A stretch of 64,000 nt of DNA, from NCBI GenBank assembly GCA_030248135.1, contig JASANC010003886.1, positions 124,001 to 188,000 of the forward strand. The letters run 5' to 3'. Source of the stretch: Theristus sp. LFF4_11 (lineage: Eukaryota > Nematoda > Chromadorea > Monhysterida > Xyalidae). Shown piece by piece: positions 56,015 to 64,000 of the stretch. The notes below the pieces were generated by a model. The model saw nothing but the letters and a program-made list of their open reading frames with translations. It was not told the origin of the DNA and made no database searches. Position 1 is the stretch's first letter. Every line of letters begins with the position of its first letter. The position numbers and the translations under genes were made by a program.

Positions 56015-59000
56015 ATGCAGATTTATTTGACAATACTAGCGTCGGTTTACACACTTTTGCATCACCATGCTTCCTGTCATCAGCGGTTACAAGCCAGACT
56101 CAGAGGCGGCGTTTTTCCGGTGATTTATTGTTTTCAATAAACATTCATTTGTGACGTTGACGTGAAAAATGCAAGCAAGTGCAAAATACAAAATGCTGAT
56201 TTGAATATCTCTGACACAGGGTTACGCAGACCCTCGACCACCGACTCCATTCATGGAACGCGAGCAGTTAATTCGTGAGCGTGTGCGAGAAGGAAGCAAA
56301 GAATATCAAACAATGACTGCTACCGAAATCACGCAATTGCAGTCACTGATGCTGAAATACATAAAGTGCACAAGAAATGTGGTATGCATTCAGACCATCT
56401 ATTCACCTGATCAGTACAATGTTGTACATGTATGCACGTCTGTTTGAGAAATCCATTATGCAATTTAGACACAGCAACTTGCTGTTTATGAAGCGCCTTT
56501 TAAATTCGACGACATAATTCCATCGGTGCAGCTTATGGAAGAGCTGGTGGCCGATGTTTGTCCAAACGAAGGTGAGTGGCCTTAGATATGTACATAACGC
56601 TGCTTTGATGTTATCAGTTTTGACTTAGGTATAAAACAAAACTGAACAAAACAAATCTCGCCACCAGAAAGTGAGACACGGACGAATCAAGGCAATTTGC
56701 ATGCGGCGAGAGTTCGACGGCGACGGCAACTGATCAATTACCAATATAAATGGGCATCATTTTGGGACTCGAACTATCCGATCTACGTTACATTCACGAA
56801 CGACGCAGCCGCAAACAGCAAGCTGCAAGCAATCATGGCCAACATGGCAGCGTTCTACAAGAAGTACTCGTGCATCGATTGGCAGATCGGCGTTCAACCA
56901 CCAGCGCACACGCAGCACATCACGGTTGTCACCGAACAGAGCGGGTCAGCAAAACAAAACCGAACACTCAAAAAGCACATTAACATAAAATAATGACACG
57001 AAGATTATAATTTGTGCAAGCAGATGTGCTTCTTACATCGGAAGAGATTATCGATTCGAAAATGGTAAACAGTGGCTATGGTTGTCGAGCAGCGGCTGCA
57101 TTCACGTAAGAAAATACTTATTTTTTTGTATTTGTATTTAATAGTTTGCTAAGTTGAATTCTGAATCGCGGAAAATCAGTAAATTGCTTTGAATGTATTT
57201 TAGTACGACACAGTGGTGCACGAATTTCTGCACGTTTTGGGCGTATTTCACGAGCAGTCGCGATCGGATGCGGCACAGTACATTACGTTGCACACGCACA
57301 ACATTCAGGATGGCATGATTTGGAACTTTCAAGACTGCAGCAAATATGGATGTAGTCTTATTGGGCCGTATGATCTGGGATCTGTCATGCATTATGGACG
57401 TGTGAGCCAAACAAGTTACATGGCATCAGACCCTTAAACTTTGTTAAAAACTTAAAAGTTTCAGTTTGGGTTTGCTATCGACAAAGATCTTGGTACATTC
57501 ACGACAAAAGACGAATCTATGACTGACACGCCTGGCATGGGATCGGACTTTTCTTTTTGGGATTTGAAGCGCGTCAATCAAATATATTGCTCAGGTGGGA
57601 AAGCATCTGAATAACTATAGTCGCCCTGTATAATTGTAGTATTAGCTGATTGGTTGCCTGAAACATCATGTTAAAAACAGAATGGATATTTTTTGATTTT
57701 GTGATTAGTTTGTTTCACGTGGCAAACAATAAGATTTTTAGTGGAAAAATCTTGTTCATGATTTGTGAGTTGCAGACAAATCAAAAGCAGCAATTTTCAT
57801 GGCAAAGAAACTATTGTTTTGGCAAAAAAACGACAGTGACGACGACGCTTTCTCCCGGGAAAAGATTACTGCAGAAATTGTTGCTCAAATTTTCACAAAC
57901 AAATGTTGAAGTTATGATTCAAAAGAAGCAATTTGAAAACGAACATCGCGGCCGCCGTCGTTCTTCTTGGAAAAACGAATTGACGGCAAAACAGATTATT
58001 TGCTTTTTACATATGTACGTCACAGAAATCCTCAAAAACGTTTTTATTAATTAAAAAAATTAAAACAGCTAATAGATATTTTATAGCAAACTCAGGTCTC
58101 CAATTGTCGTCGTGGCCTTCGTTCATATTTTAGAACAAAATGAAGTTTTATTGCCATGAAAACTGCTGATTGTGATTTGTCTTCATCTCGCCAAATCGCA
58201 TACAATTTTCCACTGAAATCTCAGTCTGTTCACACAAACTAAACGCATAAAATCACAAAACCAAAAAATGTACATGTACATTCCAAAATCTTTTTTGAAC
58301 CTGATTTTGATGTTCCAGGCAACCAATCAGCTAATACTATTATCAGATACATTACCCATAGCTACTATAGGCATCGTTTAGAAGTTTAAAAATACTTTTA
58401 TCAAAACTTGCATTCCACCGAAAAGCGCTTCAGGAAGATGTCACAATACACTCGATTGTGGTTCAGTTGGCTACCAGAATCCAGCGAAATGTTGGCAATG
58501 CATATGTCCTACGGGTGTCGGCAATGACGGTACCTGCAACAATCCGTTACCAGGTGGGTGTTCAGCCGTATAATGCATAGTCTTTGATGAGCAAAAGTTA
58601 TTCATGACCAGACCATCACTGCGGAGGCGTGATGACCGCCACGCATGAATGGCAAAGAATCACAGTGAATCGAGATCCACAGAACCCGTATCCAGATGAC
58701 TGCGTTTACATCATTCAGGTAAACTGTTAAAACAACATGAGTTTGATAAACTCGACTTCAAGAAGTCCACCACAAAATATGCGCAGAAAATTTTCCTACC
58801 TCTCTGATAATCTAAAGTTTTTTAGAACCCGCTCAGAAGAAGAATGCAATTTGTACCACGTGATTTATTTCTTTATGATAATGGAGTTCGCTCGTCTCGT
58901 TGCTACTGGGAAAATATCGAAGTTCGAATGGAAAACTACGAGCGAAGTACAGCTGTGTGCGTAATCGTGAAGTTATTTTACGATCATGTGAAAATTTTAA

Positions 59001-62000
59001 ATGTCTAACTGTGCGGGTAATGCATTTCAGTTACTGTGGGTTCATAGGCGACAAGGTTTGGACTACTACAAGCGAACGATTAGTGTTCTACTATCGCGTT
59101 AAGTATGACTTTACCGGCACACGATCGTTCGAGTTCCGAATACACGGTTTGCATAGCTCACTCTGCGTATTTTGAAAATCTGTAGCTCTATTTCACCATT
59201 GGTGATTCAAAGTCGATGAACATATTGCATCTAGAGTCCACAACAACAACGACCACCACCACAACAACAACGACAACTCCAACTTCAACTTCTACTGCAA
59301 CTACAACTACTACAACTACAACAACAACAACGACAACTCCAACATCAACTTCTACTACAACTACAACTACTACAACTACAACAACAACAACGACAACTCC
59401 AACATCAACTTCTACTGCAACTACAACTACTACAACTACAACAACAACAACAACAACAACAACAACGACAACTCCAACATCAACATCAACTTCTACTACA
59501 ACTACAACTACAACTACAACTACAACAACAACAACAACGACAACAACAACGACCACCACCACAACAACAACAACGACAACTCCAACTTCAACTTCTACTA
59601 CAACTACAACCACGACAACAACGACCATCACCACCACTACAACAACTACGACAACTACTTCTACCACAACAACTACAACTACTACAAGTACCACAACTAC
59701 AACAACTACCACAACAACAACTCCAACATCAACTTCTACGACAACTACAATTACTACAACGACGACAACAACAACGACCACCACCACTACAACAACAACA
59801 ACTACTACTACAACGACCACCACCACTACAACAACAACAACAACTGCTACAACGACCACCACCACCACCACCACAACAACAACAACTACTACTACAACGA
59901 CCACCACCACTACTACAACAACAACAACAACTACTACAACGACCACCACCACCACTACAACAACAACAACTACTACAACGACCACCACCTCCACTACAAC
60001 AACAACAACAACTGCTACTACAACGACCACCACCACCACCACTACTACTACAACAACAATAACTACTACAACGACCACCACCACCACTACTATAACAACA
60101 ACAACTACTACTACAACGACCACCACCACCACCACAACAACAACAACAACAACTACAACGACCACAACCATCATTACAACAACTACCACAACTACGACAA
60201 CTACTTCTACAACAACTACAACAACTGCAACCACGACAACAACGACGACCATCTCCACCACTACAACAACTACGACAACTACTTCTACCACAACAACTAC
60301 AACTACTACAAGTACCACAACTACAACAACTACAACAACAACAACTGCAACAATAACGTCTCCCACAACTTCAACCACTACAACCACGACAACAACGACG
60401 ACGACCACCACAACAACTGCTACAACCACGACAACAACCACGATATCCACGACAACGACAACGACCACCGCAACTACTACTACTGCCACAACGACAACCT
60501 CTTCTTCTACTACTACCACGACAACCGCAACAATGACCATCACCACCACCACAACAACGACGACATCCACGAAAACCACAACGACCACTGCAAATACTAC
60601 CAGTACAACACCCACCTCAGCCACTATCACTACTACTACAACGAGAACTACACCTAAAAGTGAAGAAAACAAAGAAGTCAGTGAGGAAGATGAAATTGAA
60701 GCGACAAAAAGCACTAGTACCACCACAGTAACTACCACAGTAACGACAACAACGGACCTTGGTGAAGTATGGCCACCATTGACCACAAGTAATCATTATA
60801 TAAGTGCTACATTTGTATATCTGTGATTAGGAACAGTTTTGAGCGCTTCAAACTTTTTCCACTGTCATTTTTTTAGCTGGCAACACGGACGAAGACGAAA
60901 GACGAAGCGCTGCAGTAGAGATGGGTAGTCCGTGTACTACAACAAATCAGTGTGTCAGTGGCACTGTTTGCGGCGACTCACCTCAAGTGTGCGCAAGTGA
61001 GTTTGTTGTACACACGAGCTTTCCAAAATTAGAACTGCCTATTGCAAAACGACTCATAACAAATTCTCAATCCACAAAAATCACGCTGTATTTCAGAACC
61101 CAACAGTGCCACCTGTGTGACAACCGATGTATGTGTCAACAGCAATCAATGCGACGCTTCAACATCTTTATGCGCATGTTTGCTAATAAAAAGATGATAT
61201 TTTATGTCAATGTGCTTGGCTCCAAATATGTAAATGACACCTAACTTGCAGTACCACTGGGCAGCGGATGCACCGGAAGCGAACAGTGTGCATTGGGAGG
61301 ACATTGCCTTGCTACGATCAGCGGCCTGCGATGTGCATGCCCAGCTTCTACCGAACAAATTGGACCAGCTTGTGTTGGTTGGTTGCTGCAAGAAAAATAT
61401 ACAAATAATGAAATAATACAAGTAGAACTTTATAATATCATTCAGTTGCACAACCCAAGTATTCCCGATGTTGCTTTTAGTAATTCAAGATGGAGTGCAA
61501 GAAGTGTTAAGCACGACTTCACTGTTTTCGCTTGGCCGCAATCAATGCGTTCCAAAAGATATGTATGTACATGTCAAAAACCGAGGAGAAATTAGGATGG
61601 ACCAACTCAATGTCCATGATATGGTAGGTATAGTCGCCCTGGATATTTTGTAGTATTAGCTGTTTGGTTGCCTGAACATCAGGTTCAAAAAAAGAAATTG
61701 GAATGGACATATTCTTTTTTCCAGCTTTGTGATTTCTGTGCGTTTGTTTTGTGTGGGTAGACAAGCAGTGAGATATTGATAGAAATAAATCTTGTTTGTG
61801 ATTTATGAGATGAAGACATCAAAAGCAGCAGACTTCATAGCAAAAAAAGTTTATTTTGTTTCAAAAAACAACGACGGCGACGACGACAGTTGGAAACCTG
61901 AATTCGCTGTCAAATAGTAGCTGCTTTAATTTTTTGATTAAGGAAAACGCTTTGTACTATTTGTGTGACGTACATTTTGTAAAAAGCAGACTTGTTTTGC

Positions 62001-63108
62001 TGTCAATTCCCCTTTCCAATAACAACGACGGCGGCGACGACAACGTTCGTTGTTCTTTCTTTGTCAAATTGACAATTCGCTTTGAAAAATGTTTCTGTTG
62101 AATCATAATTCCTGTTTTACCTTCAAGGTTTAAATTTAAAGCGACTACATTGTATTTCAGCAGCAATTTTTTTCCGAAGGGAAACGTCGTCGTCGTCAGT
62201 TATCGTCCCTTTTTTCGAACAAAAAAGAGTTTCTTTACCATGAAATTTGCTGCTTTTGATTTGTATGCAACTCCCAAATCATGAACAAGATTTTTCCATT
62301 AAAAATCTCACTGTTTGCCCACGCAAAATAAACGCACAGGAAATCACATTACTCAGAAAAAAGAAAAAAATTCTTTTTTGAACCTGATGTTCAGGCAACC
62401 AATCAGCTAATACTACAAAATATCCAGGGCGACTATATGAAATTAATGTGAATGTACAAGTACAAGTGTATTTTCAAACACAAGAATCTCAACGCCGTTT
62501 TAAAACTTCAGGTAAAAATTAGTTCTCCTGACGGCGCTCGGTACAGTCCAGTTGTGGCATTCTTTCATCGCGAAGTTTTGGTTGAGTACGAGTGTTTGCA
62601 AATAAAGACCAAGTCAAATAGAACGTTAAAAATTTCACTGTACCATCTGCTACCGAGATTCCCGTGCGATTTCGAGCATTATTTGCAAGAAGTCACAAAC
62701 TCGGCATTATTTGCTCACACTGTCCGACCGGGTGATTGTTTGCTGACTGAACAATCGAGAGGAACCTTCAAAAAAGATGAAATAACAACGGTAAATTTTG
62801 AATCATTAGTTTATGGTTGCGCAAAACGAACTTTTTAAATGGGACAAGCTTTTCAGATTTCTCGTACAGTTTGTCAGGGTGCATACAACCCGATTACAGC
62901 CGAGGGGAGCATTGTTGTTAACGGAGTGCACAGCTCTTGTTATTCAGTGGTCGAAAGTCATCGACTGCAACATATGATTGCCAAAGTGATTGTTCGCCTG
63001 CAAAAAGCGCTGCGTTGGCTGTGTGGCACTAGCGATGCTGACGGTTCAGTTTCAGTGCTACTGAGCTCATTAACTCACGTTGTCAACTTATTGTTGTCTG
63101 TGTCCTAA
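56015..63108 (+). CDS. Astacin-EGF-CUB-polyThr-EB-Hint (Hog) multidomain protein
   Basis: Eighteen exons: 56015-56110, 56220-56378, 56469-56571, 56668-56944, 57024-57105, 57204-57401, 57465-57594, 58434-58553, 58612-58718, 58826-58956, 59031-59146, 59235-60788, 60877-60996, 61097-61177, 61252-61377, 61481-61623, 62512-62790 and 62857-63108. All phases match (4074 nt, 1357 residues). Order: signal peptide (MQIYLTILASVYTLLHHHAS); propeptide with furin-like RVRRRR; astacin domain with HEFLHVLGVFHEQSR zinc site and SVMHYG Met-turn; nematode-type EGF; CUB (CGGVMTATHEW ... FLYDNG ... YCGFIGDKVW); a Thr-rich mucin region from about residue 507; EB-like Cys-rich modules (CTTTNQCVSGTVC, CTGSEQCALGGHC); and a Hint domain with N-terminal Cys (NQCVPKDMYVHVKN), YSPVVAFFHRE, the block-B His in KISLYHLL and GAYNPITAEGSIVVNG-VHSSCY. 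Predicted secreted protease with a self-cleaving C-terminus. No transcript confirms the single reading frame. Confidence 0.85.
57618..58370. mobile_element. TA-flanked inverted-repeat element in intron 7 of the astacin-Hint gene
   Basis: The left end TAGTCGCCCTGTATAATTGT ... TAGTATTAGCTGATTGGTTG and the right end CAACCAATCAGCTAATACTA are long inverted repeats. Sub-terminal parts also mirror each other (GATTTTGTGATTAGTTTG / CACAAACTAAACGCATAAAA). The last ~35 bp of the right arm differ. Related to 61631-62436; non-coding. Confidence 0.8.
59235..60660. repeat. (ACN)n trinucleotide repeat encoding the poly-Thr region
   Basis: Roughly 470 nearly uninterrupted ACA/ACT/ACC/ACG codons in the + frame, with Ser, Ala, Ile and Pro at intervals. 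A period of about 63 bp is visible at 59270-59470 (ACTCCAACATCAACTTCTAC). The complementary strand reads as poly-Val, which is a shadow. Confidence 0.95.
61631..62436. mobile_element. TA-flanked inverted-repeat element in intron 16 of the astacin-Hint gene
   Basis: Ends TAGTCGCCCTGGATATTTTG and CAAAATATCCAGGGCGACTA are perfect inverted repeats flanked by TA. Arms extend through TAGTATTAGCTGTTTGGTTG, CCTGAACATCAGGTTC and beyond, covering much of the ~806 bp. It sits between the two halves of the Hint-coding sequence and must be spliced out. No coding capacity. Confidence 0.9.
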
Positions 63109-63241
63109 ACGTATTGTTTTCAGGTTACTATCTAGATATAAAGAGTATGTAAAAATTGTAAAAATTATTAGAAAAATTAATAGACGGGTGCAAAAAACAC
63201 ACGAGTTGCAACATATCAACTTACAACTGTGAAATCTCATA

Positions 63242-63441
63242 TTAAACTTTGAACTTTGTTACACCAGCTAATTGCTGATACCAAACCAACGTATGTATGT
63301 AATGTGCCCTATTCGCCGACCGGTTACGACAACGTTTACTGTCTGTATTGTGAGGCCGGTTACTCGAAATTGGTTGGATTGAATTCAATTTGTAGACGCC
63401 GGGAGAGCACACGAGTTCACATACCATTCATTCGTAATTAA
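63242..63441 (+). CDS. Possible Cys-rich exon, unknown gene
   Basis: After the acceptor TTGTTACACCAG an open frame reads LIADTKPTYVCNVPYSP then CLYCEAGYSKLVGLNSICR and stops at 63441. The Cys spacing resembles an EGF/TNFR-like module. It lies after the Hint stop codon, so it is either a separate small gene, an alternative 3' exon, or a remnant. Confidence 0.3.
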
Positions 63442-63482
63442 CTTGCTTCTTCCATTCAATTCTGACTTGAATTGATGGTTGT

Positions 63483-64000
63483 TTTTACCGTATCCGGACC
63501 TTTCTCGCACGGACAGTTCCCGTTCGTTCGGACCTTTCCCGCGAGGACCTTTCCCGCGCGGACCTTTCCCGTACCGTGTTTCTGTTAGCGTTTTATGGTT
63601 CGTTTGTTAAATCGTTCGTTTTCCAGCGTATTTATTTATTGAAAATTCAAAAAAATAAACTTGAGCAAAATCTATTCATTTTTTTTCGGAAATCTTAAAA
63701 AATGTTGCTCAGTCTATTTAAAAAATCCAGCGACAAAATTTTTCATGTTTTTTTGCCTCGCTCATGCTGCCTCATAAATAAGCAGATACGCCGCCTCCAG
63801 ATGTCTCAGCAGAAAGAAACAAATTGTATTTGAAATTCCGATAAATGATTTTGGCACTTCATCCATTGAACACGACAAACTGCAAATCAACGGCAATCAG
63901 GTGGTTCCGTGTCATCTTGTAGCCTGCTATGCTCGTTGTGGAGCCCTGTGTGCTTGAATGCTTCAAAACGAACGCTGCGGGAAAGGTCCGCGAATCGTTC
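63483..64000. mobile_element. Element end with GGACCTTTCCCGCG repeats, cut by the window
   Basis: Four imperfect ~15-bp units (GGACCTTTCTCGCAC, GGACCTTTCCCGCGA, GGACCTTTCCCGCGC, GGACCTTTCCCGTAC) lie at 63498-63575. The inverse GCGGGAAAGGTCCGCGAA is at 63977-63994, so this is probably an inverted-repeat element of about 500 bp or more. The interior is AT-rich and non-coding. Confidence 0.6.

Follow-up and report, generated by a model that had tools for sequence, protein, structure and literature searches.

Gene model and domain architecture

We analysed a 64-kb window of the genome of the nematode Theristus sp. LFF4_11 (159.4 Mb in 3744 contigs; the window is positions 124001-188000 of contig C2474), which holds a predicted gene that joins an astacin metalloprotease to a Hedgehog-type Hint domain. 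Unprefixed coordinates are window positions, C denotes a contig and L a numbered paralog locus of the same genome. Between 56015 and 63108 on the + strand, 18 exons, with every intron GT-AG, splice into one open frame that runs without internal stop to its sole, terminal stop, which bears out the coordinates, strand and frame given in an earlier, sequence-only reading of this DNA. The coding sequence measures 4086 nt and the product 1361 residues; the length first given, 4074 nt, was rightly said to be divisible by three but needed correction. From its N-terminus, the product comprises a signal-peptide-like segment, a propeptide with an RRRR site, astacin, EGF-like and CUB modules, a Thr-rich region encoded by a single exon, EB modules and the Hint domain. 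The sequence-only reading had recognized the astacin, CUB, mucin, EB and Hint parts, but had left out the EGF-like module between astacin and CUB. The features are as follows.

56015-56119, + strand: exon 1 of the gene model, with the start codon and a signal-peptide-like N-terminus (MQIYLTILASVYTLL...), flagged as signal-like in a hydrophobic-stretch scan
56220-56381 and 56469-56571, + strand: exons 2-3, astacin propeptide, by similarity to the propeptide of paralog L009 (E=5e-18)
56668-56944, 57024-57105, 57204-57401 and 57465-57594, + strand: exons 4-7, RRRR processing site and astacin catalytic domain (Pfam Astacin, 1.3e-41)
57219-57254, + strand: zinc motif HEFLHVLGVFHE, with the Met-turn SVMHYG in the same exon
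57595-58433, unstranded: intron 7, filled for the most part by a repeated element that has long inverted ends, outside the coding gene
58434-58553, + strand: exon 8, EGF-like module of the nematode astacin type
58612-58718, 58826-58956 and 59031-59146, + strand: exons 9-11, divergent CUB (41-51% identity to four paralog CUBs)
59147-59234, + strand: 88-bp phase-1 intron that separates CUB from the Thr-rich exon, equal in place and phase in paralog L009
59235-60788, + strand: exon 12, Thr-rich and mucin-like (420 Thr in 516 codons), with an acidic patch near its 3' end
60789-60876, + strand: 88-bp phase-1 intron, the proposed fusion junction between astacin-type and EB-Hint-type parts, from comparison of paralog structures
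60877-60996, 61097-61177 and 61252-61377, + strand: exons 13-15, EB-like Cys-rich modules, phase 1-1 (Pfam EB; phases as in the stand-alone EB-Hint gene L024)
61481-61623, + strand: exon 16, start of Hint, with the predicted nucleophile Cys (residue 1160) at 61546-61548
61624-62511, unstranded: intron 16, second copy of the intron 7 element, in opposite orientation
62512-62790, + strand: exon 17, Hint core, with two nematode-type Cys
62566-62568, 62635-62637 and 62644-62646, + strand: exon 17 sites, respectively His at the Drosophila Asp303 position and Ser and His of the SxxH motif
62857-63108, + strand: exon 18, Hint C-terminal motifs (GAYNPITAEGSIVVNGVHSSCYS), C-terminal tail and stop

A Pfam scan matched Astacin at 142.8 bits (cut-off 22.5) and Hint at 122.2 bits (cut-off 29.7; 2.9e-35). 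For the EB modules, the cut-off of 24.3 bits was exceeded in a scan of these modules alone (25.3 bits) but not in one of the whole EB-Hint piece (18.2 bits). Astacins are marked by an HExxHxxGxxHE zinc motif and an SxMHY Met-turn; both are intact here, and the region aligned with solved astacins. By these features the product falls within the astacins (peptidase M12A), and proteolytic activity is predicted. In its N-terminal 512 residues, Pfam found only Astacin and one sub-cut-off Peptidase_M10 match, and no Wart, Ground, Ground-like or Qua domain; a single NCBIfam match in the astacin region fell far under its cut-off and was set aside. The EGF-like module (model residues 353-392), unmatched by Pfam, was called solely from its 60-63% identity to paralog exons. 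The CUB was likewise too divergent for Pfam on its own: in an alignment of five family members, Pfam CUB matched the four others (best 1.7e-7). A profile of this alignment gave nine weak matches to solved structures (E 0.0032 to 0.43), which we take to be proteins bearing CUB domains.

Exon 12 encodes, besides its threonines, 34 Ser, and contains the long Ser/Thr-rich stretch of a mucin-type domain, for which dense O-glycosylation would be expected. Codon positions one and two are mostly AC while the third varies (entropies of 0.77, 0.56 and 1.83 bits for positions one to three), as expected if threonine, not a DNA repeat, is conserved.

The N-terminal part corresponds to astacin paralogs of the same genome

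Seven close astacin paralogs (L009 to L015) were compared with the fused gene. All share homologous exons for astacin, EGF and CUB (for L015, the homology covers the end of astacin and what follows), and six of the seven carry a Thr-rich tract in the same place; the seventh, L013, ends at a contig end inside CUB. Their Thr-rich stretches span 45 to 114 codons, with a second one of 50 codons in L014, compared with about 500 in the fused gene. Read by eye, LDLa modules follow the tract in four of these six paralogs (L009, L010, L011 and L012), whereas none was noticed past it in L014 or L015; in the L009 tail, the one of these tails that was scanned, Pfam LDLa matched at 6.1e-13. The Thr-rich exon of L009 is bounded by phase 1 on both sides, as in the fused gene, and its LDLa exons then follow in phase 1 (by eye). 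The examined stretches of the seven paralogs contained no Hint match. The phase-1 joins on either side of the mucin exon agree with the sequence-only reading, and its proposal of a single fused gene is supported by the exon order and phases of the paralogs. That reading described the mucin region as a linker; the region is an enlarged Thr-rich exon native to the astacin family. We rejected an origin of the mucin from the Hog side, on the pattern of Xiphinema Thog, since a coding-strand tract occurs in 6/7 astacin paralogs and in 0/27 other Hint loci over the stretches examined.

Paralog L009 (C2474:90500-100400, - strand), with the order astacin-EGF-CUB-Thr-LDLa-LDLa, shares the contig of the fused gene, at a distance of about 80 kb and in opposite orientation. 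A search by Cys-spacing pattern for leftover LDLa exons downstream of the fused gene (63001-64000 and the next 4.5 kb) found none.

The C-terminal part corresponds to stand-alone EB-Hint genes

By our own count from an exon list, with 150 of 154 candidates scored, Pfam Hint matches mark some 60 to 65 sites across the genome, part of which probably represent alleles or tandem copies. In C. elegans, ten proteins bear a Hint/Hog domain (PMC1636047). Stand-alone EB-Hint genes, which are common in this genome, share with the fused gene the phase 1-1 EB exons, the Hint phases, the C-terminal motifs and His303 (for example L016 and L024), but have neither astacin nor a coding-strand Thr tract. In L024, the EB exons end in phase 1, the last one also being entered in phase 1, and the Hint exon begins in phase 1 and ends in phase 0, followed by a phase-0 core exon, all as in the fused gene (by eye). 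L016 has its own signal-peptide-like first exon, ending in phase 1, plus an EB exon (by eye).

The absence of coding-strand Thr-rich tracts from the 27 other Hint loci refers to upstream stretches ranging from none to about 9 kb, with some loci overlapping; by a rule based on Thr alone, Hint locus L022 showed one Thr-rich stretch, which is antisense to its Hint and about 7 kb away from it. Of the matches listed (150 of 154 Hint and 150 of 367 astacin candidates scored), the fused locus was the only one with an astacin exon less than 10 kb upstream of a same-strand Hint, while C468 and C2621 have astacin exons downstream of Hint on the same strand (both by eye).

The EB-Hint genes (L016-L028, L030-L036) form a large expansion, with several in tandem, and some share identical blocks, suggesting gene conversion. 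Two further Hint copies, L001 (C287:3975-4481) and L002 (C3434:2067-2573), are near-identical, each with a Pfam Hint match at 12-181, an uninterrupted frame of 226 codons and a very long branch in the Hint tree. Ground-like domains, which are nematode-specific, gave 13 matches in the genome, 11 of them over the cut-off. PMC2362128 reports that neither the T. spiralis genome nor Enoplea expressed sequence tags yielded any detected copy, so that their presence here points to Chromadorea. An Rfam search for SL1 RNA, made with trans-splicing in mind, gave no match, but its positive control was silent as well.

A probable chimeric gene joined at a phase-1 intron

We read the gene as a chimera made by exon shuffling, because its exon order and phases match those of astacin paralogs before the seam and those of EB-Hint paralogs after it. 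For this comparison, paralog DNA was read for exon order and phase in L009 (Thr and LDLa exons) and in L024 and L016 (EB and Hint exons). We infer that the gene is astacin-type up to and including the Thr-rich exon and EB-Hint-type from the next exon, with the seam in the 88-bp phase-1 intron 60789-60876. Through phase-1 introns, the EB-Hint tail of a Hedgehog-related (Hog) gene would have replaced the LDLa tail of an astacin-EGF-CUB-Thr-rich gene, and the Thr-rich exon would have expanded to about 500 codons. Each half is missing the parts that such a fusion would have eliminated: from the astacin gene its LDLa tail and stop, and from the EB-Hint gene its signal-peptide exon.

A single transcript likely spans both halves, as judged from the genomic sequence. 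The sequence-only reading had named a polyadenylation site or a separate signal-peptide start between the halves as findings that would speak against it, and neither appeared. The + strand has no AATAAA or ATTAAA in 59146-60877; after the Hint stop, ATTAAA occurs at 63241 and AATAAA at 63654. A simple scan for ATG plus a hydrophobic stretch flagged no start in 59031-60876. Upstream of 59031 it flagged five ATGs besides the gene's own start: those at 57078, 58268, 58274 and 58928 lack a phase-1 donor, and that at 57668 lies inside the repeated element within intron 7.

Copies of this element, about 0.8 kb long with long inverted ends and about 72% alike, fill the gene's two largest introns, one per half, in opposite orientation. 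A fusion mediated by the element was considered and rejected: it is common in the genome (42 matches listed, with 40 of 330 candidates scored), so its double presence needs no special cause.

State of the Hint domain

The Hint domain was aligned with Hedgehog structures 6td6, 7e2i, 6tyy and 1at0. The alignment places Cys1 at residue 1160, reads SLYH at block B and shows the late Cys (SSCYS) to be retained; PMC8529194 describes what the Cys1 nucleophile, the TxxH block B and the late Cys do. Ser replaces the block-B Thr in 29 of 33 distinct Hint sequences, counting the fused gene. The two extra central Cys that distinguish nematode Hog from Hh (PMC2362128, in part) are present here (PRFPC and GDCLL), and both occur in 29/33 distinct sequences, the fused gene again included. 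With the domain, Cys1, block B and the two central Cys in place, the fused gene's Hint/Hog is of the nematode Hog type by sequence, and autocleavage is predicted.

At the Drosophila Asp303 position the fused gene has His, as do 31 of the 33 sequences including it, the other two having Asp (a script counted 29 His and 2 Asp; two rows were one place off and were His by eye). Pfam found no Hedge signalling domain (HH_signal) in the protein; a genome-wide search for it also gave no match, but the positive control was silent too. Lacking both the Hedge domain and Asp303, the predicted protein is not a bona fide Hedgehog. In Drosophila, the D303H mutant retained structure and activity and accepted coprostanol and epicoprostanol far better, according to the accessible part of PMC9163320. 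His303 in nearly all Hint copies read here appears as a natural counterpart of this engineered mutant with widened sterol tolerance and, if so, would admit sterols that Hedgehog rejects.

Near-invariance was defined on the other 30 sequences; by this measure the fused gene's Hint keeps 32 of 36 positions (89%). The corresponding share is 84 to 100% in 26 of those 30 and 49 to 65% in the remaining four, which include one partial sequence. Because the fused gene's Hint retains these positions although its end branch in the tree measures 0.94 changes per site, we consider it to have been constrained for most of its history. Given a transcript, the domain would probably be active.

Alternative explanations

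Several observations weigh against a single gene with a working Hint domain. The single-gene case comes from the genomic sequence of one species and one allele. The 88-bp introns on either side of the mucin exon have middling splice scores in a small model trained on the gene's other 15 introns, their donors ranking 42 and 40 of 345 GT sites and their acceptors 22 and 48 of 307 AG sites. Protein searches, in which the halves were queried separately under length limits that exclude fused-length proteins, yielded two proteins for which Astacin domains are precomputed, and no relative on the EB-Hint side. The Hint tree gives no supported nearest relative and carries a long-branch warning, leaving the placement unsure, and the constraint on Hint may predate the fusion. 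The nucleophile region reads NQ-CVPKDMYV, compared with CF followed by DQ or DE in 24 other nucleophile exons chosen by pattern, none of which has Gly before Cys1, as is also the case here. In addition, HD stands where nearly all others have GD, and SLYH replaces the common SPEH. Differences in the nucleophile region (CVPKDMYV, HD for GD) could lower activity.

The middling splice sites bear on two of the alternatives. If either 88-bp intron remained unspliced, an in-frame stop would follow (59173-59175 or 60824-60826), so that an astacin-CUB-mucin gene could end by read-through of the mucin exon at 60824-60826, with an adjacent EB-Hint gene, a common type in this genome, starting separately. 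We regard such a gene pair as improbable and set it aside, having found no usable start, signal peptide or polyadenylation site between the halves. Only 88 bp separate the mucin from the first EB exon, the EB-Hint half would lack a secretion signal, and, apart from the gene's own start, the only flagged upstream ATG that has phase-1 donors, at 57668, sits in the repeated intron element. Retention of intron 60789-60876, whose donor is among the middling ones, might instead yield a short astacin-mucin form beside a long form with Hint; this is distinctly improbable, as neither this intron nor the mucin exon contains a polyadenylation signal. The roughly 1.5-kb ACN repeat tract is also risky to assemble, and Thr-rich Hog proteins such as Xiphinema Thog have been published (PMC2362128, in part), so reads of an astacin gene and of a Thr-rich Hog gene could have been joined within the repeat. 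The distribution of coding-strand Thr tracts among paralogs, however, suggests that the tract belongs to the astacin side; if it does, a misjoin would lie within unique intron sequence and not inside the repeat. The mucin exon 3' end and first EB exon match strongly only at the fused locus (seven other matches are weak, E 0.09-0.84), and the window, checked for assembly gaps, contains no N. An assembly chimera is thus highly improbable. A real fusion in which Hint has lost catalysis and acts only as a structural tail would fit the divergent nucleophile surroundings, the four lost near-invariant positions and the long branch, but appears unlikely in view of the retained Cys1, SxxH His, late Cys and 32 of 36 near-invariant positions.

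Overall, we favour, with moderate confidence, a single chimeric gene with the origin described above and the self-processing mechanism described below.

Proposed processing of the fused protein

The precursor would enter the secretory path and lose its propeptide at RRRR. Hint would then form a thioester at Gln1159-Cys1160, breaking the bond before Cys1160, and the thioester would be resolved by a sterol-like or other nucleophile, or by water. The product would be an astacin-EGF-CUB-mucin-EB protease with a modified or free C-terminus: an adduct would tether it at a membrane or in apical matrix, whereas hydrolysis would free it. Autocleavage in vitro is described for C. elegans WRT-1 in the accessible part of PMC1636047. 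If Hint is active, we consider a lipid adduct and hydrolysis about evenly balanced. On the whole it is doubtful that Hint self-excises and leaves a sterol-like lipid on the C-terminus of a mucin-stalked astacin, an outcome in which the extracellular protease would be anchored by lipid and need neither a transmembrane helix nor a glycosylphosphatidylinositol signal.

As for the site of action, published reports place Hedgehog-related proteins and mucins of nematodes in the precuticle or cuticle and link astacins to moulting and to the processing of collagen (PMC11304992). Because of these reports, and by analogy, the protease may act in cuticle or precuticle, with apical matrix the likeliest site. 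One protein joining Hedgehog-related, mucin and astacin parts would suit tethered or timed matrix cleavage.

Relation to known Hog proteins and astacins

Both parent families, and poly-Thr beside Hog, are already known; a protease as Hog cargo was not found in our searches of the open-access literature. Like the predicted product of the fused gene, nematode Hog proteins (warthog, groundhog, quahog and Enoplea Xhog) are secreted and have a C-terminal Hint/Hog domain with two extra central Cys, and their Cys1 and block-B His are also kept here. Their N-termini, as far as the accessible text of PMC2362128 and PMC1636047 describes them, hold named domains of other kinds, regions with Cys, short peptides or Thr tracts, whereas the cargo of the fused gene is a complete astacin protease followed by EGF, CUB and a mucin stalk. 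Poly-Thr N-terminal to Hog also occurs in Xiphinema Thog and choanoflagellate Hoglet (about 70 and 200 residues), but the accessible part of PMC2362128 mentions no protease in either. Since the fused gene's Thr-rich exon comes with the astacin gene, this likeness is probably convergent.

The astacins NAS-36, NAS-37 and their kin share with the fused gene secretion and the order propeptide, astacin, EGF, CUB, and the C. elegans members end in TSP1; these nematode astacins are treated in the accessible part of PMC11304992. The fused gene ends instead in EB-Hint, and four of the six complete paralogs of its genome in Thr-rich and LDLa parts. We found no report of an astacin-Hint protein in the open-access literature, most subscription papers lying outside the search; papers mentioning both astacin and a Hint module refer, in their accessible text, to Hint under other gene names, with no link to astacin.

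Attaching lipids to signalling proteins is what Hog domains are known for; to our knowledge, the adduct made by those of nematodes is unsettled. A protease cargo, if real, would show the Hog domain to be a portable self-processing tag for enzymes, and the location of the protease would provide a readout that makes the adduct question testable.

Sequence beyond the Hint stop

Directly after the Hint stop, a short Cys-rich frame (PTYVCNVPYSPTGYDNVYCLYCEAGYSKLVGLNSICRR) lies at 63253-63441 on the + strand and is not joined to the model. It is followed at 63530-63571 by the 15-bp tandem repeat GGACCTTTCCCGCGA, with apparent relatives, in places open frames, farther along the contig in L029. At about 534-833 of that locus (C2474:188534-188833, + strand), past the window end, there is a Cys-rich frame with repeated CCG/CC motifs, presumably galaxin-like from its look.

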